From contig BGKB01000034.1 in the NCBI GenBank assembly GCA_003116975.1, positions 428,307 through 492,306 of the forward strand: a DNA stretch of 64,000 bases. Reading direction: 5' to 3'. The translations under genes were made by a program, and so were the position numbers. How positions within the stretch are numbered: the first letter of the stretch is position 1; the number at the start of each line of letters is the position of its first letter. A model generated the notes under the pieces. That model did not search any database. It worked only from the letters and a program-made list of their open reading frames with translations, and was not told where the DNA came from. The stretch is from Aurantiochytrium sp. KH105. Its lineage: Eukaryota > Sar > Bigyra > Thraustochytrida > Thraustochytriidae. This document shows positions 3,949-52,053 of the stretch, piece after piece.

Positions 3949-6012
3949 TTATGCAGACTCTTCGCAAGCCTCGGTCGGATCAACGCCAAGCTTTGCTTCC
4001 CTCTCACGTTGAGTTTCCTCCATGATCTCACGAAGCATCTCCTCCTCGAGCGCTTGGCGCTCGTCCTTGATACCATGCTCCAGGAGCCATCGTTCCGCAT
4101 CGAGAGCTGCCATGGCTCCCGTGCCGGCTGATGTGATGGCCTGACGGTAGACTGCGTCAGCAACATCACCAGCCGCGAAGACACCTTGCACCGAGGTGCG
4201 CGTCGAAGGCCCCGGCACCTCAAGATATCCCTGGTCATTCATCGTGAGCTGACCGCGGAATGGCCATGTGTTGGGCGTGTGGCCAATCGCGACAAAGGCG
4301 CCGCTCACAGAAAGCGTCATCTCCTCGCCAGAGTCGGTCTTGCGCAGCTTGACCGCCGTGAGGAGCTCAATGTCCTCCGTCGTGTCAGCGCCCTGCGCGT
4401 TCATGTGCGGGTCCTTGTCGGCCTCCTCCGGTGTCTCCGTGTGGCCGATAAAGTCTACGATTGTAGTGTTCCAGAGAACCTCAATCTTGGGATGCTCCAT
4501 GACGCGTTGCGCGAGAATGAGCGACGCCTTGCTAAAGGTGTCTCGTCGGTGCACGATCGTCACCTTGGAGCACATGGTCGCCAAGTGCAGTGCCTCCTCC
4601 ATGGCAGTGTCGCCACCACCGACCACCACAACCTCTTGATCACGATACAAGTAGCCATCGCACGTAGCACACGCCGACACGCCGCCACCCTTGAACTTTT
4701 CCTCTGACTCGAGGCCGAGCCACTTGGACGCGGCGCCTGTTGCTACCACAACAGTGTGCGTCGAAATGCTGGACGAGTTCAAGCGCAGTACGTGGGGCTG
4801 GCCCGTCGTGGCGCTGAGCTCCACGCCGGAGACCATTTCGTCGCTAAAGACCGCACCGTAGCGCGCTGCCTGCTTTTGCATCTCGTACACTACGGCCGGT
4901 CCAGTAATGTCGATCGCGAGGCCTGGATAGTTTTCCACGAGCACACCCTTGCCGCAGAGCTGGCCATCATTCGGCGGACCGACCACGACAGGCCGCAGAC
5001 CGGCTCGCGCAGCGTATACGGCAGCACTAAGACCCGCGGGGCCGGCACCGATGATGACCACGCGTTCCGCAAGACCATCCGGGTCCGGCGTGTACATGTT
5101 GAATGTTGGCGTATCTTCGCCGTCATCTTCTTCGTCCTCGTCCTCGCTGCCATTCTCTTCCATTTGCGCCTCGAGTTCGGCCTTGCGCTTCTCGAGCTCG
5201 GCCTCAAGGGCATCCATGCTGGCAAGATGGAGGTTCGGCTTGAGCGGCTCGTCTTTGGCTCGTCGTGACGAAGTCGACGATGCCGGCGGGGGCGTCGTTT
5301 GCTGTTGCTGCTGCTGCTTTGCGCCCTGTTTCGGGTCCTCGGCGCTTTGCGGCGCGTCCGGGTCGTAGCGCAGCGTAGTCTCCGGGGCGACGCCGTACTT
5401 TTTCTTGAGCGCCTTGGCCAAGTTGCGGTGGCCCTTGCCGCCCTCTTCGCCGCCGGCCTTCTTCATGACCTTGTCGAGATTCTCGTCGGTTGCTTTGTCG
5501 GGAGCGTGTTCCTTGTAAAAGCTTTCTAGTGCCTCGCGCGTGATTTTCACGTTGTTTGCCTTGAAGTCGCTTGCGAGTCGGCTGGCCCACGCTTGCAGCT
5601 GCTGCAGGTCGCCTCCGGAAAACTGGTGCTGCTTCTTGCCGTTTTGGTAGAACTGAAACGTTGGCATGCTCCGAATCCGCTGCTGCGAGCTCGTCTCACG
5701 GTTCCCGTTCACGTCAACTTTGGCAAAGACAACCTTGTCGCGGTACTGCTTGGCCAGGTTCTTGTAATGCGGCGCGATTTGCCTGCACGGCCCGCACCCA
5801 TCGCTGTAGTAGTCGATGATGACGCCCAGTCCCGTCACATCGCGATGGTAGTTGAGCAGCCGCGTGAATTCCTTTTGCGTCCGCAAGTTGCGCACCAGCG
5901 GTCGAGCTCCTGTCGCGCCGAGGACCGCGGTCGTCAGCGTCAGGACAGCCACGAAAGCCCTCGCGAGGGCGCCTTTCGACGCGTACGAGGCGGAGGTGGT
6001 GGTCGTCGCCAT
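3949..6012 (-). CDS. Secretory thioredoxin-thioredoxin reductase fusion (Trx-NTR order)
   Basis: 687 aa from the ATG at 6012. A hydrophobic N-terminus (about residues 14-36) looks like a signal peptide or signal anchor. A thioredoxin domain (about 40-140) carries the active site C73-G-P-C76. A charged helical linker (about 155-215, ending in a KALKKKYG-type motif common in protist proteins) and a poly-Q/acidic linker follow. The rest (about 313-670) is a low-molecular-weight NADPH-thioredoxin reductase: FAD motif GAGPAG, redox centre C448-A-T-C451 followed by DG, NADPH motif GGGDTA with HRRDTF, and the C-terminal FAAGDV motif. Family knowledge: NTR passes electrons from NADPH through FAD to thioredoxin. 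The known plant NTRC and mycobacterial fusions place NTR first; here Trx comes first. The signal peptide implies ER, secretory or plastid-type routing. Confidence 0.93.
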   Translation of the reverse strand: MATTTTSASYASKGALARAFVAVLTLTTAVLGATGARPLVRNLRTQKEFTRLLNYHRDVTGLGVIIDYYSDGCGPCRQIAPHYKNLAKQYRDKVVFAKVDVNGNRETSSQQRIRSMPTFQFYQNGKKQHQFSGGDLQQLQAWASRLASDFKANNVKITREALESFYKEHAPDKATDENLDKVMKKAGGEEGGKGHRNLAKALKKKYGVAPETTLRYDPDAPQSAEDPKQGAKQQQQQQTTPPPASSTSSRRAKDEPLKPNLHLASMDALEAELEKRKAELEAQMEENGSEDEDEEDDGEDTPTFNMYTPDPDGLAERVVIIGAGPAGLSAAVYAARAGLRPVVVGPPNDGQLCGKGVLVENYPGLAIDITGPAVVYEMQKQAARYGAVFSDEMVSGVELSATTGQPHVLRLNSSSISTHTVVVATGAASKWLGLESEEKFKGGGVSACATCDGYLYRDQEVVVVGGGDTAMEEALHLATMCSKVTIVHRRDTFSKASLILAQRVMEHPKIEVLWNTTIVDFIGHTETPEEADKDPHMNAQGADTTEDIELLTAVKLRKTDSGEEMTLSVSGAFVAIGHTPNTWPFRGQLTMNDQGYLEVPGPSTRTSVQGVFAAGDVADAVYRQAITSAGTGAMAALDAERWLLEHGIKDERQALEEEMLREIMEETQREREAKLGVDPTEACEESA

Positions 6013-7698
6013 GGTTTGTCTCGTCACGCGACTCTCCCCCGCTCTCCCTCGATCACGAAAGGGGTCTCGCTCCCTTCGGAAACGGAGGTCTTCTCGCGCG
6101 ACGCGCGCCGCACGCACCCCGCCCCGCTCGCCCAGCGCGTCAGCCGTCTCCGGCGCGGAGACCTCGCCCGACCTCCCGAGCCGCTCGCGCGCCAAGCGGT
6201 TCTGCGCCACGCTGTTCGTTCGACTCGACGTTGGCGCCGCCCCGAAGAGACCTATCGCGCTTAGGTCCCTTTCTCCCTTCCGAGCCCCTGCGCAACGCAC
6301 TTTCGGGCGAGCGCTCTCCCGGCCATCGCGGACGCAGGCCCGAGCGCAGAGCGAGCGGCGCAGACCGGCGCAGACGTCTCTGTGCGCGCGCGCGGCGGCC
6401 GGCAGACGAGCGACCTTGTCCTCGTCGAGGTCCGCCGCCGAGTTTTTTGCGGAGGCGAAACGAGCCAGCAAGATCCGGCGAGCCATCTCTGGCATCTCGT
6501 CGCATCTCATCTCGTCACACCTCATCATATCTCATCTCATCTCATCTCATCTCTGCGGCTCTTCGAGCTGGCTGGCCTCGGGAGAACGAACACGCCGCTC
6601 GCCCGCTCGATCGTCCGCGCGTCCGTGACGACAGACGCGGAGACCGAGGCCCTCTGGCACGCGCGCGGGCGAGGGATGCGAGCCCGATAAAGGTCGCGCG
6701 CCGCGCTCGGTCGGGTCTGGCTGGCTGGCCAGGCGGCGATGCCGCGGCAGCTCGAGCCTGGCGCCGCCTCGCAGCTGCAGCTGCAGCTCGCTCGCTCGCT
6801 CGCTCGCGCCGTGCGCCCGTGCCGCGCGGCAGCGGGCGCGAGCGTCGGGGAGCACGGGCCTCCATCTTGGATCAGAATCTTTCGCCCTGCATCGTGCGTC
6901 GAAAAGCCTCCGGACACCATGCGTCTGTCCGTCTGAGCGTCTGGTCTGTGCATGTCTGACATGGCATGTCGAGCGTGTCGGCTGCCGAAGCTACCAGGTT
7001 GTTCGTACACGAGCCCGTGGCGAGCGCCCGAGGTCGCGCCAAGGTCGGCTCGCGTGCTCGCTCGGCGGCTGGCTCGCTTGGTCGGCGCCTCGCCTCGCCG
7101 CGGTCCCTCCCGAGGAGCACGTTTCTTCTCTTACTCATGTTACTCTTCCATTTCACTTCGCACACAGCGCATCTTTCCCCCATTTCCCTTCGTCGAGCCT
7201 CCGCCAGCTCGTCCCCGCCTTCCCGGACGCGCGGGACAGGAGCAACACTTGAGGGGCCGCGCCGCGCCAAAAGCGCGATCACGGAGCCGGATGCGGTGTC
7301 CGCAGCAGCGCAGGAGCGCGGGCGGGCGGTGGTCGCTTGCTCGCGAGGGCGGGCCTCTTGCCCCGGCCACTTGCGGGCCCGGCTCGGCCAGTGTGCGCCT
7401 CTGAGACCTCTTCTCTTCGTCTCGGGATGGCCGGCGTGGCGATGCTGGGCGGGCGGGCGACAGTGCAAGCAAACCCGAAAACTGCGGCGGGGACCCACAT
7501 ACGATACATACCTCCACGTCGGCCGGGCGAGCGAGCGAGCGAGCGAGCGAGCGAGCGAAGCAAAGTCGGAACGCGGGGAGGAGGAGAGGGCGGCGACACC
7601 GGGAGAGAGCTCGTAGGCAGGCAGGTGGACGGACGGCAAGACCCTCAGGAACTTGACGACGACAACGACGACGACGACGGCCAGCTTGCGAGGAAAAG
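6013..7698. other. Divergent promoter region with repeats
   Basis: 1.7 kb between two divergent starts. It contains a (CATCT)n-like run at about 6490-6552, a CAGCTGCAGCTGCAG block near 6770-6787 next to GCTC repeats, a (GAGC)n tract at 7527-7559 and a GACGACAAC run near 7655-7680. No open frame here has a recognisable domain. Nothing further is seen. Confidence 0.6.
7527..7559. repeat. (GAGC)n microsatellite
   Basis: About eight tandem GAGC units, 140 bp upstream of the secreted repeat-protein gene. Confidence 0.95.
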
Positions 7699-17763: not shown

Positions 17764-19073
17764 CCGACGACTGACCGGCTGACTGACTGACTGACGACCT
17801 GTAAGCTAAAGAACCTCACTGACTGACTGTGAGAGGACAAAGTCCTCCAAAAGCTCCCCACCTGTCCTCCCCAAAGCGCGCCGCGCCCCGCCCCAGCCCC
17901 TGCCCTGCTCTGCCGCGCCATCCACCACCATCCATCCATCCATCCATCCACCCCCCATACGCGCCGCTGCGAGCAAGAGCCACCGGACCAGGTCGCGAGA
18001 GACCTTGCTCGGCACACACACCCTCTTTCCCTTTCCCTCTTATCACAGTGAACGCGGTGCACGCGCTGCCGCCGCCGCTGCACGCGCTGCCGCTGCCGCT
18101 GCACGCGCCGCGCCGCCGCCTGGACGCGCCGCGCCGCCTCCGCTGCTGCGCAGCGCGGGCGGGCGGGGCGTCCGCTCTGCCCTGGCCCGGCCTGGCCTGG
18201 CTGCGCGCGGCCCCGAGCCCGCGGCGCGGGTCTCCGGAATCGAGCGGCGGCGGTCTGCGAGCGGCGGCGGCATGTCAGTCTCTCTGTCTCTCTGTCTGTC
18301 TGTCGCAGAGACTCGTCACGACCGGCGGCCGCGCCTCGCCTGCGAGCGGAGCGAACGCGGAGCCGCTGCGGCAGGGCAGCCGCAGGGCCGCGCGAGCTCG
18401 GCAGGAGAGCGAGCGAGCGAGCGAGCGAGCGAGCAGGCCAGGTCGCGGGCGCGAGCCGCAGGAAAGACAGGTCCTCTTCTTCGCCAATTTACGACGCCAA
18501 TTAGCCCAGTCGGCACTTTACAACGAGCGGCCTTGCGAGCCAGAGCCGCGACCACGCCCCGCTGCGCAGCCGCGCAGACCTCGAACGCGGACGAGCGTCG
18601 GCGCGCCGCCGCCGCCGGCAGAGCAGAGCAGAGCGGAGCGGAGCGGAGCAGGCGCCCGCAGCGCGGGCAGCGCGGGCCGGCCGCGCGGCGCCATCGCCGT
18701 CATCAGCGCGGCGCAGGAGCTCGAGCACGACCGCGCGCAGGAGGGGCGCAACGGCGACGAGGAGGACCTGGCCGGCGGCGGCGCGAGCGACGTCCGCCGC
18801 GGGAGAACGCGCGGCCTCGCGCGGTCGGCCGGCCGGCCGGCCTGCTGATCGGTGGAGCGCCTTGAGCGCGCGGCAGCAGCGCGGACCGCAAGAGCGGAAA
18901 CGACGCGTTCGCCCGGGAAGGTATAACGCAGCTTGCCGAAGTCCGTGGGGTACTACTGCCAGCGCAAATTAGGCGAACGAACCCTGGGAGATCGCAGAGA
19001 AAGATCAAGGTTGCGGGCTGCACTGCCTGCGCCAGAGCAAGAGAGCAAGAGAGCAAGAGAGCAGAGCGCCCCG
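17764..19073. other. GC-rich intergenic region with microsatellites
   Basis: 1.3 kb between two + strand genes. It holds a (CTGA)n run right after the upstream stop (17762-17795), (CATC)n at 17929-17951, CCGCTGCACGCG repeats near 18068-18110, CTGT/CTCT repeats near 18275-18305 and (GAGC)n at 18410-18434. Open frames on both strands are Ala/Arg-rich and carry no domain. Probably promoter and UTR sequence. Confidence 0.55.
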
Positions 19074-21062
19074 ATGGAAGGCTTTCTCGGCGTGCCCAAG
19101 TCGGGCCGATGGAAAGATGGCCACGAGCGATACTTTGTGGTGGACTTGAAGCGCAAAGCCGTCTGCTCCGGAAAAGATGCCGCCGCGGCTCATGAGGCTT
19201 CGGCCAAGAAGCTCCCGGCGTCCAACTTTACCGCTGCGCAGATGACGGGCGTCACCGCCGGCGAGTTTCGCATCCTCACCAAACGCAACACCTATTTGTT
19301 CCGGGCCAAGAGCGCGCGCGAGGCTCGCAAATGGGTCGCGGCCGTCGAAGACCTCATGGAGTACGTGGGAGGCGCTGCAGCGAGGCACGTGGCGAAATCC
19401 AAGCATCGCATGAAAACGTCCTCGGGAGGGACCAAGTCCTCGACCGCGGAGCGCCTGGGACTCGTTGCGGTGGGAAGCGTCTTTACGCTTGTCGCAGTCT
19501 TTCTCGTGGCCCTCACGTCGGCCATTGCCCCCAAGCATCAACAAACTCCAGTCTATCGGCATCTCGACGCACCGCCAGCACCGCCAGTGGAGCCAGCGGC
19601 CTGGACCGCCAGCTTTCCAGAGAGCGACTTGCTCACAATGCGCGATGTGCAAGACACGCAGACGGAGTACGAGCAAGCTCAAGGAGTAGCAGACATGGAC
19701 GACGTCTCGCTTCCTCCAGCAGTCTACGAGGCCAACCAAGGCAAAGGGTCTTCGGTCCTTGCTCTTGCGCTTGTCGCAATCATTGTAGTGGCAGCGAGCG
19801 TCGTGTATGGTGACCGTAAACGACTCGGCCGACTGCTGGACAGTGAACGCCGACGCATCCGCAAAGCCATCGCTCAGTCTTTGCGCGAAACGTCAAGATC
19901 GGTGCGCAAGCCGTTTGAAGATCTTGCAGACTGGATGAACAACATCGTCTCCAAGGTCACAGGATTCTTTTCGTTCGGAGAAAGCAGTGGAAGTGGCGGC
20001 AAGGGAAATAAAGGCTCTGATTCCCGTGGACGTCACAGGTCGCGATCAGCCCGTTCGCCCCCGCCGATCTTGATTCCCGAACGCGCGCTGGGAAGTGAAC
20101 AGCGCAAAGCCCTGGAACGTCAGCTTGAGAGCTCTCGAAGCCTTGGATCCGTGTCTTCTTATTCGTCACGAGACACCCAGGGATCCTCGCAGCGCCGTCG
20201 AAGCCATCGCAGGGACCCAAAGCCGCTCTCCAGGGACGGCGACGCGTCCGTTGCGCTATCGGCAATGTTTGCGGCTCGCGCCGGACCCCCGCCTCCGCCC
20301 TCGTCTCGCGCAATCAGAGCTTTCGACGCACAAGATGAGATACCGACCATGCAAGAGGAAAGAGAACAACTAGAAGACGAAGATGAAGTGGAAGAGGCCA
20401 AAGCAGACGAGGAGGAAGAGGACGGTAGCATGGAGTCATCCAAATCATCCAAGAGTCAACGCTCCAAAGGCAAAGGAAACAAGAAAAAGCAAAAAAAGGA
20501 CAAGAAGAAGAAGAAGAAGAACAACCACAAAGAGCTGACAAAGGATGCCAAGCAGGGCCGAAAGAAGGGCAAGTTGTGGTTAGGATCGTCGCTCTCTAGC
20601 ATGATGGCCGTGGCCCCCGCCCGTCGCCCATCAAAGCGCAGGTCGATCGAGCGAGATGCATCGTCCAATTTCGAAGAAGACAATAACGACGACGAAGAGG
20701 TTGCGCCCGAGGACCTTGGAGAGTCCGCGGGTAGCTCTCCTGCCGAACGCATGCGCGCTGCTGGACCGAAATACGCCAAGTACGCAAGGATGCTCAGCAA
20801 TGGTGTCCCCGAAGGCGCCGTGCGCCAAGCTCTCGTTCGCGATAACATCAGCGCACCTCGCGGGATTTTTGAGGACGAGTCTGTTGTGTACTCGCGCTCG
20901 AACGCAAACCAGTCCCGAAAGAAGCTGCCCAAGGCGAAGAAGTCTTCGACGGCTGAGCCTCCCGCGAAACGAAGGTCTCTACGCCGGGAACCAAGCGTCA
21001 TCGACGAATTGCGCGAGCGACAAAGGAAGCTTGGTATTTTTGCTTCCGATGATGACGAGTAA
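19074..21062 (+). CDS. PH-domain protein with two transmembrane segments
   Basis: 662 aa. The start is the first ATG (19074); the frame is open upstream only through a TTG. Residues 1-97 form a PH domain (GFLGVPKSGRWKDGHERYF and the closing helix SAREARKWVAAVEDLM), giving phosphoinositide or protein binding. TM1 is at ~128-153 (VFTLVAVFLVALTS) and TM2 at ~228-247 (VLALALVAIIVVAASVVYG), with a ~75-residue loop between. After TM2 there is an Arg-rich helix, then Ser-rich, acidic and Lys-rich (KKKQKKDKKKKKKN) disordered sequence. Near 565-591 the segment YAKYARMLSNGVPEGAVRQA resembles the short MLKMGVPxxAV motif found in the CCDC53 (WASHC3) family and many protist proteins; this match is tentative. 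Likely tethers a membrane to cytosolic partners. Confidence 0.75.
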   Translation: MEGFLGVPKSGRWKDGHERYFVVDLKRKAVCSGKDAAAAHEASAKKLPASNFTAAQMTGVTAGEFRILTKRNTYLFRAKSAREARKWVAAVEDLMEYVGGAAARHVAKSKHRMKTSSGGTKSSTAERLGLVAVGSVFTLVAVFLVALTSAIAPKHQQTPVYRHLDAPPAPPVEPAAWTASFPESDLLTMRDVQDTQTEYEQAQGVADMDDVSLPPAVYEANQGKGSSVLALALVAIIVVAASVVYGDRKRLGRLLDSERRRIRKAIAQSLRETSRSVRKPFEDLADWMNNIVSKVTGFFSFGESSGSGGKGNKGSDSRGRHRSRSARSPPPILIPERALGSEQRKALERQLESSRSLGSVSSYSSRDTQGSSQRRRSHRRDPKPLSRDGDASVALSAMFAARAGPPPPPSSRAIRAFDAQDEIPTMQEEREQLEDEDEVEEAKADEEEEDGSMESSKSSKSQRSKGKGNKKKQKKDKKKKKKNNHKELTKDAKQGRKKGKLWLGSSLSSMMAVAPARRPSKRRSIERDASSNFEEDNNDDEEVAPEDLGESAGSSPAERMRAAGPKYAKYARMLSNGVPEGAVRQALVRDNISAPRGIFEDESVVYSRSNANQSRKKLPKAKKSSTAEPPAKRRSLRREPSVIDELRERQRKLGIFASDDDE

Positions 21063-36208: not shown

Positions 36209-37984
36209 CTACGTTCTGGCGTCGAGACGCGGGAGATTTGAGCGCGCGTCGGATGTGGAGGAAGAGGCGCCAAAGAGACGCTCGAGCTCCAAGGTGGTCT
36301 GGTGGCGCAACAGCGCCTTCTCGAGGGAGGCGATACGCACGGCGTACCAGGCGCGTTCACGCGAAAAGACGGTCTGGTTCACGTGGCAGAACCTGCGCAA
36401 AGAACGGTACCGCTCGATGCAGCGCACAGAAGTCTTGATGCCAATCGCGTCAAGCAACTTGCGCAGACAAATGGGGCAAATCTGCAAAGGCACAAAGCCC
36501 ATCTCCTCGAGGTGCGCAAAGCCGTTCATGAGACACCCGTGATAAACGCAGTGGTCCATGTCGAAAAGCAGCATGGCGTGATGTGCAAGCCACTTGCAGG
36601 CGCGGCGGAGCAGGAGTGTCTTGCGGGTCTCACGAGAGTCCTGAATGTGCGGATCCCGTGTCGGATTCCGCCGGTACCACGGATCGAGGCGCGAGAGACT
36701 CAAAACGCAGACGCGTTTGCGGTTTGCGTGCTCGCGCATCTCGGGCAGCGTCATGTACGGACTGCCCCTCGTGTACCCCTCGCCTCCAGAGACCTCGTGC
36801 AAGGTAATGCCAATGAGCACAAAGGCGTTCGTGGGCAGCAACTTACGCAAGTACCGCTCAATCTCGGGCAGTTGAATTGGAACACTAGTATTTTTGCAGG
36901 CTTCCTCCGTCTCAAAACCAGTCAGCTTCATGTCCAGCCGCATTCCGCGATCGCGATGCAGCCCTCGTAGCGGAATCGGGGGCAGCGTCGTCACGCGGAT
37001 CCCATGAAAGTACGCACGCGCAAAGTCGGCAAGGCAACGCAGCTCGCAGCCTCCGTTAAAGGGCTCGAGATCGCCAATGGCCACGAGAAAAATGTGGCTG
37101 CGATTACTGCCAAAGGGAATGCGCGGGTCCATCGCCTTCCAATCTTGGTAGCGTTGGCTCCGCGTGCGCGCCTCGGGGCGAAGTCCAATCCAATCGTCCT
37201 TCCATGGCCTTTGAATGGGTCCAAAGAGCCCGCTCTTGTCCAGTCCCGACTGGCAGGCCAGGCGCAAGGGCGGGACGAGGTCAACCACGTCTTCTCCGCT
37301 CGCCTCGCTGCGCTCAGCGCTTCCGGGTAGCGATGGGGCTGGGTCTGGACGGAATTCCTCAATCTCTGGCTCGCCTGAGACGCGATCCTCCTGGAAAATC
37401 TCCTCGTGTCGCGCCTTGACTCGCTGCCGGTCATGCTTGCGCTCTTCACGATGAACCCACTTCATCATGTTGAACTGGAAAGCGGCCACGAAGCCGATCG
37501 GGTTGAGCAGCTTGTACACGTCACGATGACCGGTTCGCAGGTCCACGGTCACATCGTGTTTTTTGTGCTCCACGCCCTTGGAGACGCGACGAACCTTGTT
37601 GTACTCGATGCTCCAGACCTTCTTATCCGTGTTGGCGTCGACAATGTCAATGTGATCGTGAAAGACGACAAACCTTCGCTCCTTCATGTCCCTGTTGCCG
37701 TCTTGCCAGAGATAGCCTGCGCGGTACCCAAAGAAGGCGACGCCTTTGGACCATCGCACATCTTCGTCGTCGGCAAAGTTTCGCCAGGCGGCAACGACAG
37801 CCCGGAGCCGCCCTTGTTCATAGATGCCACCAGGACGGCAAACTTTGTCTACGAAGGCGTATTGTCTGCGAAGTCGGGCTAGCCACACACGCGCCTGACG
37901 CTGTATCTGTCGCGCGCAGTGCACCTTGCGGAGGCGCGCGCGCTTGGTCAAAAGCTTGGCAATGTCCTCGCCGCCGCCCGGCAT
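36209..37984 (-). CDS. IQ-PH-archaemetzincin-like protein with a degenerate active site
   Basis: 591 aa, ATG at 37984. An IQ-like motif (ARQIQRQARVWLARLRR, ~24-40) suggests calmodulin binding. A PH-like domain follows (~75-185: KERRFVVFHDHIDIVDAN ... FQFNMMKWVHREE). The C-terminal half (~300-530) follows the archaemetzincin (AMZ) fold: VCVLSLSRL, then the metal-site region H468-H-A-M-L-L-F-D-M-D-H478-C479, C484-L-M-N-G, and C503-P-I-C506 followed by LRKL. The canonical AMZ motif is HExxHxxGxxHC-x4-CxM...CxxC. Here the catalytic Glu is His, the second zinc His is Leu and the Gly is Asp, while the last His and all four structural Cys remain. So the structural zinc site looks intact and the protease site looks lost. 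Probably a pseudo-enzyme with a binding or scaffold role. Confidence 0.8.
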   Translation of the reverse strand: MPGGGEDIAKLLTKRARLRKVHCARQIQRQARVWLARLRRQYAFVDKVCRPGGIYEQGRLRAVVAAWRNFADDEDVRWSKGVAFFGYRAGYLWQDGNRDMKERRFVVFHDHIDIVDANTDKKVWSIEYNKVRRVSKGVEHKKHDVTVDLRTGHRDVYKLLNPIGFVAAFQFNMMKWVHREERKHDRQRVKARHEEIFQEDRVSGEPEIEEFRPDPAPSLPGSAERSEASGEDVVDLVPPLRLACQSGLDKSGLFGPIQRPWKDDWIGLRPEARTRSQRYQDWKAMDPRIPFGSNRSHIFLVAIGDLEPFNGGCELRCLADFARAYFHGIRVTTLPPIPLRGLHRDRGMRLDMKLTGFETEEACKNTSVPIQLPEIERYLRKLLPTNAFVLIGITLHEVSGGEGYTRGSPYMTLPEMREHANRKRVCVLSLSRLDPWYRRNPTRDPHIQDSRETRKTLLLRRACKWLAHHAMLLFDMDHCVYHGCLMNGFAHLEEMGFVPLQICPICLRKLLDAIGIKTSVRCIERYRSLRRFCHVNQTVFSRERAWYAVRIASLEKALLRHQTTLELERLFGASSSTSDARSNLPRLDART

Positions 37985-38460
37985 TGTCGGACTTGCAGCA
38001 GACTTACAGCTGGCTCGACTTGAGTGAGTCTCGCTCTCTGTCGCAGCCCTGTTGCATCAGCACGGTACCGTCGGGCATGCAGCGCTTGCTCGGTGCCTCC
38101 CTCGGGCGAATCGCTCACACGCTCGCTCGAGCAGTGGCAAGACTCGCCTCGCGCGGCGCGTCCCCCGTTGTCGCGGCGTTCCCAACCCGGTGCGTTCTCG
38201 TCCTCGCTCGCATGGTGTGCACTCACTGGCATTGAGAGCGCTCTCAGGTGCTCATGCTTATACTGTGATTGACTGTGAGTCCGGCGATGGAGAAACGGAT
38301 CCCGCGGAGCAGGTATCGTAGCAAAACACTTCGCGCGCGAGATTTCGGAGCGCAGGCAACGCAGGCAACGCAGGCGACGCAAGGGACGTAGACGCAACAA
38401 AAGACACAGAGAAGACGTAGGGCTCGCAATACGCGCGGGGGAGAAAGAAAGAGAGCGACA
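37985..38460. other. Divergent promoter region
   Basis: 476 bp between divergent starts of the AMZ-like and calmodulin-like genes. It includes a GCAACGCAGGCAACGCAG repeat near 38355-38385. No gene is seen. Confidence 0.6.
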
Positions 38461-38991
38461 ATGGCGGAAACCAAGGGCCCGACGGGTGACGGCGCCAACG
38501 CTGCACCGTCGTCAAAGGCCGCTGTTTTGAGCCCGGAGCAGGTGGAGCACTTTCGTGACGCCTACAACATTTTCGATAAGAATGGAGATGGCGGCGTAGG
38601 CATTACCGAACTCGGACACGTAATGCGGTGTCTCGGTCTCGACCCATCAGACGATGAAGTGAGACGCATGTTTGACGAGGTGGACGTCGATGGGTCGGGA
38701 GAAATCAGCTTCGAGGAGTTTCTTGAAATCATGGCCGAGATGTCGGGTGAGAGCAGCACCGAAAAAGAACCCGGACAATCCGAGAATTGGGCAGAGGCAT
38801 TCAAGATTTTTGATCTCGACGGCGATGGCTTTGTCACGGCGGCAGAGCTTGGCAAGGTTCTTGAGAATATGGGCGAGCCGCTCAAGGACTATGAGCTGCA
38901 GGAAATGATTGATGAGGTTGACAAGGATAAGGACGGCAAGCTCAATCTCGAAGAGTTCGTGCACGTTATGGCACACGGTCTCGATGGCTGA
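38461..38991 (+). CDS. Calmodulin-like four-EF-hand protein
   Basis: 176 aa, ATG at 38461. Four EF-hand loops are intact: DKNGDGGVGITE, DVDGSGEISFEE, DLDGDGFVTAAE and DKDKDGKLNLEE, each with acidic or Asn residues at positions 1, 3 and 5 and Glu at 12, so all four should bind Ca2+. The N-terminal 24 residues (MAETKGPTGDGANAAPSSKA) extend beyond calmodulin and are disordered. The linker between lobes (SGESSTEKEPGQSENWAEAF) is longer than in calmodulin. Overall it is closest in type to calmodulin/troponin-C/centrin relatives; it is too divergent to be calmodulin itself. It may act with the IQ-motif protein encoded divergently next door; that link is speculative. Confidence 0.9.
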   Translation: MAETKGPTGDGANAAPSSKAAVLSPEQVEHFRDAYNIFDKNGDGGVGITELGHVMRCLGLDPSDDEVRRMFDEVDVDGSGEISFEEFLEIMAEMSGESSTEKEPGQSENWAEAFKIFDLDGDGFVTAAELGKVLENMGEPLKDYELQEMIDEVDKDKDGKLNLEEFVHVMAHGLDG

Positions 38992-49797: not shown

Positions 49798-50262
49798 AAT
49801 AAATATATACTACATCATCATCATCATCATCATTATCATGGCTGACAACACCAAGAGCAAGGCAAGACGTAAGACAGAAAAAGGTCGCTTTTCCAGCCTC
49901 TCATGGTTGGTTTTCGACCTTGCTGCACGGTGGCCGTTTGTCTCGTTCTTCGCCACTGAAAGTTGTTATGACCGACTGCAAGCCGGACTGTCTCCTCTCG
50001 TAGTACGAGAGCTGAGCTCCGCGTCGCAGTTCCGTAACAACGCTCGCGCAACTCGGGCTCAGGCGTGCAGAAGAGCCGCGCGCGAGACCGTGGCGTGCAG
50101 AGCGGACGGGAGAGCAGCTGGCGAGGCCCGCCCCTTGCGTTGGCGCGAGGTGGGCGCGCTTCACTTCTGCTGGACGGAGATCGAGCCGCGAGCCGCGAGC
50201 CGAGAGAGGATAGCGCTGCGCTTCAGGGAAACTTGAAGGAGCGCTGCGAGCGCGCGGAGACG
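49798..50262. other. Intergenic region
   Basis: 465 bp between two + strand genes. It starts with AATAAA and AT-rich sequence and an ATC repeat (49814-49835), then becomes GC-rich toward the next start. No gene is seen. Confidence 0.6.
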
Positions 50263-52053
50263 ATGTCGACCAAGGGCAAGACGAGCGAGCGGCTGTCGAT
50301 GAAAGGACAGATTCACAAAGCGTACAAGGTGATGCTCAAGCTCGTAAACCCCAAGTTCGTCAAGTCGGACCAGAGTATCCCGCTACGCGTGCTGCAAAAT
50401 GCAAAGGGCATCGCTTTCGTGACGCAGATCAAGGCCGGCTTCGTCTGGACCGGATCCGCGGGCAGTGGCATTGTCATTGCTCGGCTCCCAGACGGATCAT
50501 GGTCCGGGCCGTCCTCCTTGGGCACGGTCGGCATGGGCTGGGGTGCCCAGATCGGCGGCAGCGTCACTGACTCGGTGATTATCCTGAACACAACCATGGC
50601 CGTCAAGGCGTTTTCCGGCAAGGGTCAGGTCAAGTTTGGCGGTAATATTTCTGTAGCTGCCGGACCGGTAGGCCGCGAAGGCGACGCTGCCGTCAATGCA
50701 GGTGATGGCGGCATTGCTGCCTGCTACAGCTACAGTCACAGCCGTGGAGCCTTTGCCGGGCTTTCGATGCAGGGATCGATCCTGGTGACACGCAGCTCGG
50801 ACAACAAAAAGTTTTATGGGCGCAAGGTGTCTGCCACCGCAATTCTCAGCGGTGCCGAGACGCCACCGGAGAACGAAGATCTCCGGCTCTTGTACAACAC
50901 GCTGCGCGTCGTCACGCACTCGAAGACGCCAGATTTCGAGTACCGCGATAGCCGCACGGGATCTCTCCAGCAAGAGTTTTCCACGGCCGGCCTTGACGAC
51001 GACCTGCCGCCCTCGCAAGGCGGATATTACGAGGACAGCTCGGCAACCTTGGGGCCCTCCATGGCAGAGTCCAACGCGTCTCTGGGCGCCTACCCTACAG
51101 CCACGTATGCGTCCTCGTATGATGATAATAACGGCGCGACTGCGGCCAAGACGGAGTCGTATTCTTACGCGACACCCTATTCGCCACCGCCGCCGCCGCC
51201 ATCGTCTTCGTCCTCGAGCGGACTCCCGCCAGGATGGCAGGAGGTCAAGACGGACCAGGGTGAGGTGTACTATTGGAATCAATCGCTCAACAAGACTCAG
51301 TGGGAGCGACCCGAGCCGGAGACGCCTGCGCCAGCGCCTGCTGCCTCGCCAGCAGCTGCGCCGCCGACAATGGCCTCGCCGAGTGCGGGCCACGAGCAGC
51401 AGCAGCAGCAGCAGCAGCAGTCGTCATGGGGTGGTCAGCAATCCTCGTGGAATTCCTCTCCGGCGCAATCGCAACAGCAACCGCAACAGCAACCTCAGCC
51501 TTTGTCGTCTTCGACGTGGGGCGGCCAGCAGTCTCCCACGCCCGCTGCAACGTCAACGAGTCCGGCCGGACACCCTAATCTTGCCAGCGAGCTATCAAGC
51601 AGATTGTCGTTGCGCCAAGAAGGCTCCAGCGCGAATGCTCCGTCAAGCTCGCAGGCAACGGGCCCACCGGGCGTCTCTTCGCGTCCAGCTCCTACGCGAC
51701 GGCCGCCGTCTGCGCGGCCGGCGGCCCCACAGCTCGGGTCTGCGCAAAGCACGAGGGACTGGAGCACTACGGCATCCAGTGTTGCCGGACTGGCAAAGCA
51801 GACTTCTGCGTCGGAGCGACCTCTGCCGGCCACGCCTGCCCAGTCCAGTCAGTCCAGTGCAGCCGCGCCTTCGCCGTCGTATACGCTTGAGCAAGTGATG
51901 GGCCGGGAGGTCCCGGATATGGATCCGCGGAGATTGGATGAGTACCTTCGCGACGAGGACTTTCAGCGGGCGTTTGGAATGGGACGAGCTGAGTTTAACG
52001 CTATGCCAAAGTGGAAGCGTGACAATCTGAAAAAGGCCAAGAGTCTGTTTTGA
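50263..52053 (+). CDS. SYLF (Ysc84-like), WW and villin-headpiece protein
   Basis: 596 aa from the ATG at 50263; the frame is open upstream but Arg-rich and implausible. Residues ~20-230 form the SYLF/Ysc84 domain (IPLRVLQNAKGIAFVTQIKA, WSGPSSLGTVGMGWGAQIGG, GRKVSATAILSG), known from yeast Ysc84 and SH3YL1, which binds phosphoinositides and actin. A WW domain lies at ~321-352 (LPPGWQEV ... YYWNQSLNKTQWERP), expected to bind Pro-rich ligands. A Pro/Gln/Ser linker with a poly-Q run follows. The C-terminal ~58 residues (539-596) are a villin headpiece (DEYLRDEDFQRAFGMGRAEF and the closing PKWKRDNLKKAKSLF), an F-actin binder. Yeast and animal SYLF proteins use SH3 domains or FYVE domains instead. 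This looks like a single-chain membrane-to-actin linker for endocytosis or cortical actin. Confidence 0.93.
   Translation: MSTKGKTSERLSMKGQIHKAYKVMLKLVNPKFVKSDQSIPLRVLQNAKGIAFVTQIKAGFVWTGSAGSGIVIARLPDGSWSGPSSLGTVGMGWGAQIGGSVTDSVIILNTTMAVKAFSGKGQVKFGGNISVAAGPVGREGDAAVNAGDGGIAACYSYSHSRGAFAGLSMQGSILVTRSSDNKKFYGRKVSATAILSGAETPPENEDLRLLYNTLRVVTHSKTPDFEYRDSRTGSLQQEFSTAGLDDDLPPSQGGYYEDSSATLGPSMAESNASLGAYPTATYASSYDDNNGATAAKTESYSYATPYSPPPPPPSSSSSSGLPPGWQEVKTDQGEVYYWNQSLNKTQWERPEPETPAPAPAASPAAAPPTMASPSAGHEQQQQQQQQSSWGGQQSSWNSSPAQSQQQPQQQPQPLSSSTWGGQQSPTPAATSTSPAGHPNLASELSSRLSLRQEGSSANAPSSSQATGPPGVSSRPAPTRRPPSARPAAPQLGSAQSTRDWSTTASSVAGLAKQTSASERPLPATPAQSSQSSAAAPSPSYTLEQVMGREVPDMDPRRLDEYLRDEDFQRAFGMGRAEFNAMPKWKRDNLKKAKSLF

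Follow-up and report, generated by a model that had tools for sequence, protein, structure and literature searches.

The cellular role of archaemetzincins (AMZs, peptidase family M54) is largely unknown. AMZ-tk is described as cleaving casein (PMC4681839) and two archaeal members as inactive on the substrates tried (PMC3427221); from a mutant of the M. kandleri protein, the zinc bound by four cysteines (Cys4) was concluded to be structural (PMC3427221). CarG of Myxococcus xanthus, in which the catalytic Glu is replaced by Gln, is reported to be without protease activity and to have CarD as its partner (PMC3427221, PMC8156234); its motif, HQx2Hx2Ex2HC, keeps the three His and two zinc ions are bound (PMC8156234), and complementation fails when any one of its four cysteines is changed to serine (PMC3427221). 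In human AMZ1, as described in the same source, the third zinc His is replaced and activity has been questioned (PMC3427221). Non-proteolytic archaemetzincins are already known, as exemplified by CarG, and the gene that we describe here in Aurantiochytrium sp. KH105 (gene A) adds another variant. A term search in a review of inactive metallopeptidases returned neither M54, archaemetzincin nor CarG; no fused or protist pseudo-archaemetzincin was found by title in the full-text archaemetzincin literature, which leaves subscription papers mostly outside; no archaemetzincin with pleckstrin and calmodulin was among the best 10 of 1365 literature matches, and no thraustochytrid metzincin was found in the full-text literature.

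The stretch of DNA analysed as a whole (the window, 64,000 nucleotides) corresponds to bases 428307-492306 of contig C34, and the genome searched comprises 76.0 Mb in 367 contigs. Gene A lies at window positions 36209..37984 on the minus strand, where the open reading frame of the initial annotation has 591 codons and runs from 37984 to 36209. That two separate genes had been misread as one was ruled out because a single frame is open throughout, both here and in a second copy on contig C65 (L002). The 591 aa protein (P0001) had been taken for an archaemetzincin deprived of its catalytic Glu and of one zinc His, fused to N-terminal IQ and PH modules. Elsewhere in the window, positions 3949-6528 (minus strand) encode a fusion protein of 859 aa in which a thioredoxin domain (234-314) precedes a pyridine nucleotide-disulphide oxidoreductase domain (489-802), and positions 50065-52053 (plus strand) encode 662 aa with Ysc84 actin regulator, WW and villin headpiece domains.

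Curated family models left gene A below their cut-offs: Pfam PF07998 gave 14.8 bits (E=0.028; cut-off 24.4) and NCBIfam NF033823 gave 22.1 bits (E=1.2e-4; cut-off 145). When PF07998 was run against the whole genome, gene A was absent, nothing was matched at E<=0.001, and the matches at E<=10 were the two copies of a paralogue (gene C) only. Similarity over the AMZ domain, by which M54 is recognised as a sequence family, was nevertheless found by blastp and by our own profiles. For the latter, 80 prokaryotic loci were fetched by one scan of genome_contigs with the pattern K[ET]xxHE[IL]GH; one profile was built from all 80 (with the locus of Paraliomyxa miuraensis, L019, shortened by 180 residues) and the other from 12 long prokaryotic AMZs, and 42 of the 80 loci served as prokaryotic rows in alignment A3 and in the tree. 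The 12-member profile matched residues 256-552 (36329..37219, minus strand) at 70 bits and was itself covered from position 45 to 297 of 302, while 600 shuffles reached 5.9 bits at most; the profile of all 80 loci gave 43 bits for the best domain and 50 for the whole protein (best shuffle 8.2). By blastp, the best relative among the 80 was the myxobacterial L019 (28% over 339 alignment columns, E 2e-20), and a single comparison with one bacterial (Bernardetia) archaemetzincin gave E=3e-11. By the profile match and the L019 alignment, homology extends over the domain as far as its C-terminal helices, beyond the motif alone, and we retain the archaemetzincin identity on the strength of this similarity, even though gene A falls short of the curated cut-offs. 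Long prokaryotic archaemetzincins such as L019 and L009 (Omnitrophota) resemble gene A over the domain, C-terminal helix region included, but they keep HExxH, as the scan required HE[IL]GH, and gene A does not; among the matches listed, no alignment with them starts before residue 220. No viral relative was obtained by tblastn in viral_contigs, using either P0001 or an alignment.

The spacing of HExxHxxGxxHC is respected exactly, as first noted, by residues 468-479 (36548..36583, minus strand), which read HHAMLLFDMDHC, that is H468-H469-A-M-L472-L-F-D475-M-D-H478-C479; H469, L472 and D475 stand in place of Glu, the second His and Gly. The Glu-containing HExxHxxGxxH of active peptidases is absent, HHAMLLFDMDH being found in both copies, and gene A keeps His468 and His478. 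The set that characterises M54 outside the catalytic residues, four structural cysteines and a CxM Met-turn, is complete and comprises C479, C484 (36533..36535), Met486 of the Met-turn, and C503 and C506 in CPIC (residues 503-506; 36467..36478), the last two Cys of the Cys4 site, all on the minus strand; the four cysteines listed at the outset are all there. His478, Cys479, Cys484 and Cys503 occur in P0001 and in 42 of the 42 prokaryotic rows of A3, and Cys506 and Met486 in P0001 and in 41. One has to keep in mind that the 42/42 at Lys464, His468, Glu469, Gly471 and His472 holds by construction, because the scan pattern demanded these residues, whereas His478 and the cysteines were unforced. 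The change from Gly to Asp, initially listed with the substitutions, cannot be read as a sign of lost activity, since this column contains Gly in 29 of the 42 rows, Ser in 8 and Asp in 2. Could gene A still be an enzyme, its metal site rebuilt from His468 and His478 plus His469, Asp475 or Asp477? Two of the three zinc His are kept, and the extra His and Asp lie close by; the general-base Glu is gone, however, and AMZ-tk E183Q is described as having minimal activity (PMC4681839). We hold a rebuilt enzyme to be highly improbable.

The second copy of gene A carries identical motif substitutions. The two coding regions align without a gap; 42 of their differences are synonymous and 10 nonsynonymous, which gives dS 0.109, dN 0.0074 and dN/dS 0.068 (P 4e-18 against neutrality; Nei-Gojobori, without transition correction). 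With stretch boundaries chosen by eye, dN/dS is 0.081 for residues 1-70, 0.069 for 71-185, 0.028 for 186-280 and 0.018 for the AMZ region 281-540, where 1 nonsynonymous difference faces 16 synonymous ones (binomial P 1e-9 against neutrality); in the tail, 541-591, it is 0.34 and the constraint is non-significant (P 0.098). A recently dead gene, or an active site lost through sequencing or assembly error, was rejected because the second copy shares the substitutions and dN/dS is low; both copies come from one assembly of a single genome, but differences of this composition, with no coding indel and a shared motif, leave this explanation next to no credence. The substitutions are conserved in the sole other copy found, and the intact HExxH that would have spoken for decay was seen only in a paralogue; this conservation is that of two copies within one genome, because an orthologue from another species was not found. 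The view of gene A as a pseudo-protease is borne out: the catalytic residues are gone, the state is identical in both copies, purifying selection is strong and the Cys4 set is kept.

The neighbourhood was compared in the same way, over 17 rows, of which 4 had no match and 1 was the opposite strand of a calmodulin-like gene (ratio 1.6, two stops); among the remaining 12 ORFs, which represent the likely coding strand and include one with a stop in its second copy, gene A has the second lowest dN/dS, the lowest (0.048) being that of the calmodulin-like gene. Seven long blocks of alignment link window positions 10272-59874 to a 50 kb piece of contig C65; identity is 93.9-95.8% in five of them and 74-78% in the other two. 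Two copies are also seen for the three M54 genes, for 12 of 16 neighbourhood ORFs, at dS 0.05-0.15, and for many pairs in family searches; this pattern would fit a diploid or hybrid assembly, and the strain is called diploid in PMC5924542. In keeping with a thraustochytrid, the genome has 24 places that match the PUFA synthase model TIGR02813, the best of them, present in two copies, at 930 bits, below the cut-off of 1010; matches also occur in 11 of 14 control genomes, none of them above the cut-off.

The check for a second, intact AMZ gene points to gene C (L005/L006), which occurs in two copies and keeps the catalytic motif HEAMHTLGLDHC. Its last structural Cys is an Asp (CPLD), a feature also seen in L019 (CPVD), another AMZ with an intact motif. 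Gene B (L003, 787-1911; L004, 1360-2487) is a second and more degraded pseudo-archaemetzincin that reads AITFFWAGPAPC by manual spacing, alignment programs placing the gaps differently; so spaced, it has neither the Glu nor any of the three His, but keeps the four Cys. In the tree, genes A, B and C form one group with support 91/84; their branches are long and may attract each other. No further intact orthologue was found in the genome with four other queries, in six-frame searches without introns in which the best candidates were scored; as these searches ignore introns and query L009 recovered gene A only, neither B nor C, a gene that is split or has diverged far could escape them.

Between copies, dN/dS is 0.30 for gene B and 0.30 for gene C (0.19 for the core of C, residues 121-330). 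The difference from gene A is significant over the whole gene for C (Fisher P 0.0013) and for B (0.0039, with rounded counts), and for the AMZ region of A against the core of C (Fisher P 0.029). Judged from these between-copy values, the protein of gene A, dead site included, is preserved more strictly than that of gene C, which keeps the motif. The coexistence of the three genes in one genome, with a motif-bearing gene C, raises the question of whether gene A acts as a decoy or regulator of C, either competing for its substrates or pairing with it, the more so as pseudoenzymes of metallopeptidase families are described as regulators of active relatives (PMC11266112). We consider this unlikely: A shares about 25% identity with C, and C is the one that evolves faster between copies.

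Comparison with CarG is instructive on both sides. Both proteins are archaemetzincins that have lost the catalytic Glu and kept Cys4, and CarG, as described, acts via protein binding; CarG shows an E-to-Q change and three His, whereas gene A shows an E-to-H change, no longer has the second His, exceeds CarG in length and adjoins a calmodulin-like gene. The NCBIfam model of non-proteolytic archaemetzincin-like proteins (NF033824) gave no match to P0001 at E<=1, and of the three zinc His kept by CarG the second is Leu in gene A. Human AMZ1, which we compare by its published description only, differs in another way, gene A keeping the third His and lacking Glu and the second His. That gene A is a transcription co-regulator like CarG would be in line with a similar loss within one family, with the binding of a partner protein by CarG, and with a best blastp relative, among the 80 loci fetched, that is myxobacterial (though L019 keeps HExxH). 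Such a role seems to us very unlikely given the three motif His and two zinc ions of CarG, one of these His being lost in gene A, and the silence of NF033824; the PH-like segment, if real, points to the membrane instead.

In the N-terminal part, Pfam gave no match on residues 1-242 of P0001, neither PH nor IQ. To look for PH, we built a profile from 30 loci of the same genome, of which 1 was dropped as clipped, 23 were kept by a basic-aromatic filter and 13 remained after removal of near copies. It gave 3.6 bits at residues 90-159, a score equalled by 34 of 20000 shuffles; as a control, the PH segment of the protein encoded at window positions 18933-21062 scores 24.7 bits. This control protein (plus strand, 709 aa) has a PH match at 48-142, below the Pfam cut-off (24.9 against 25.1 bits), and one to CCDC53 of the WASH complex (564-637) at the cut-off. 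With hhalign, the comparison to PH gave E 0.004 and a probability of 8.4%; none of 100 shuffles did equally well, and E was 0.046-0.24 for six other stretches of P0001. Of the PH module announced initially, there remains a weak PH-like segment at about residues 87-179 (37448..37726, minus strand) that the shuffles favour and that Pfam and the hhalign probability do not; a PH fold in this region is possible. The IQ module finds no support by profile. The string IQRQARVWLAR, in a basic stretch at residues 24-41 (37862..37915, minus strand), misses the usual Gly; three IQ regular expressions match here, as they do in 12.7%, 3.7% and 0.5% of 5000 shuffles, the 0.5% belonging to an expression tailored to the string, and a profile of 19 of the 20 own-genome motifs fetched (one near copy removed) gave -1.7 bits, with 3328 of 20000 shuffles as good. 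The basic stretch could still be a calmodulin binder.

Directly across an intergenic stretch of 476 bp (37985..38460; copies 95.7% identical over 463 ungapped columns, with 26 gap columns), a gene of 176 residues is divergently transcribed on the plus strand (38461..38991). It shows both calmodulin similarity and four EF hands: PF00036 is found in 4 stretches and PDB calmodulins are matched at E about 1e-38. Its best relative in the genome is 50% identical (C73/C18). Near full-length calmodulin-like matches in short open frames amount to eight gene pairs, this one included, intron-containing genes escaping such a count, and EF-hand proteins of any kind are found in 69 places. Taking about 11,850 genes per set, strain CCAP_4062/3 being given 11,853 coding sequences in a published description, the chance of such a neighbour is around 0.1%, a rough and post hoc figure that rises if any EF-hand protein counts. 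The head-to-head arrangement is identical in both copies, which are not independent species. The divergent gene hints at a calmodulin link of gene A.

The loss of the cutting residues, the strong preservation and the head-to-head calmodulin-like gene lead us to regard gene A as probably a binding protein, not an enzyme; that it is a catalytically dead archaemetzincin kept as a binding module is the reading we favour, with reasonable though far from full confidence, on sequence comparisons. The AMZ fold would remain intact, held by the Cys4 zinc, and the cleft of the former active site would take up a peptide or protein and leave it uncut. Positioning, perhaps on a membrane with phosphoinositides, would fall to the N-terminal part, in which a linker follows the PH-like segment, and the divergently encoded calmodulin-like protein could be its Ca2+ sensor partner, via the basic N-terminal stretch. 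Gene A may be a membrane scaffold, as suggested initially. Going one step further, and with considerable doubt, one may imagine that a protease scaffold has become the effector in a Ca2+ pathway: a membrane-placed pseudo-archaemetzincin and its own calmodulin-like sensor would share a bidirectional promoter, gene A being one of two AMZs disarmed, possibly independently, in this genome.

Two of the three M54 members found in this genome lack residues of the catalytic site, and the dead gene A is more constrained than the motif-intact gene C. The constraint on gene A and these catalytic losses suggest that the conserved work of the family can be binding instead of cutting, and the head-to-head calmodulin-like gene provides a concrete candidate partner for gene A.
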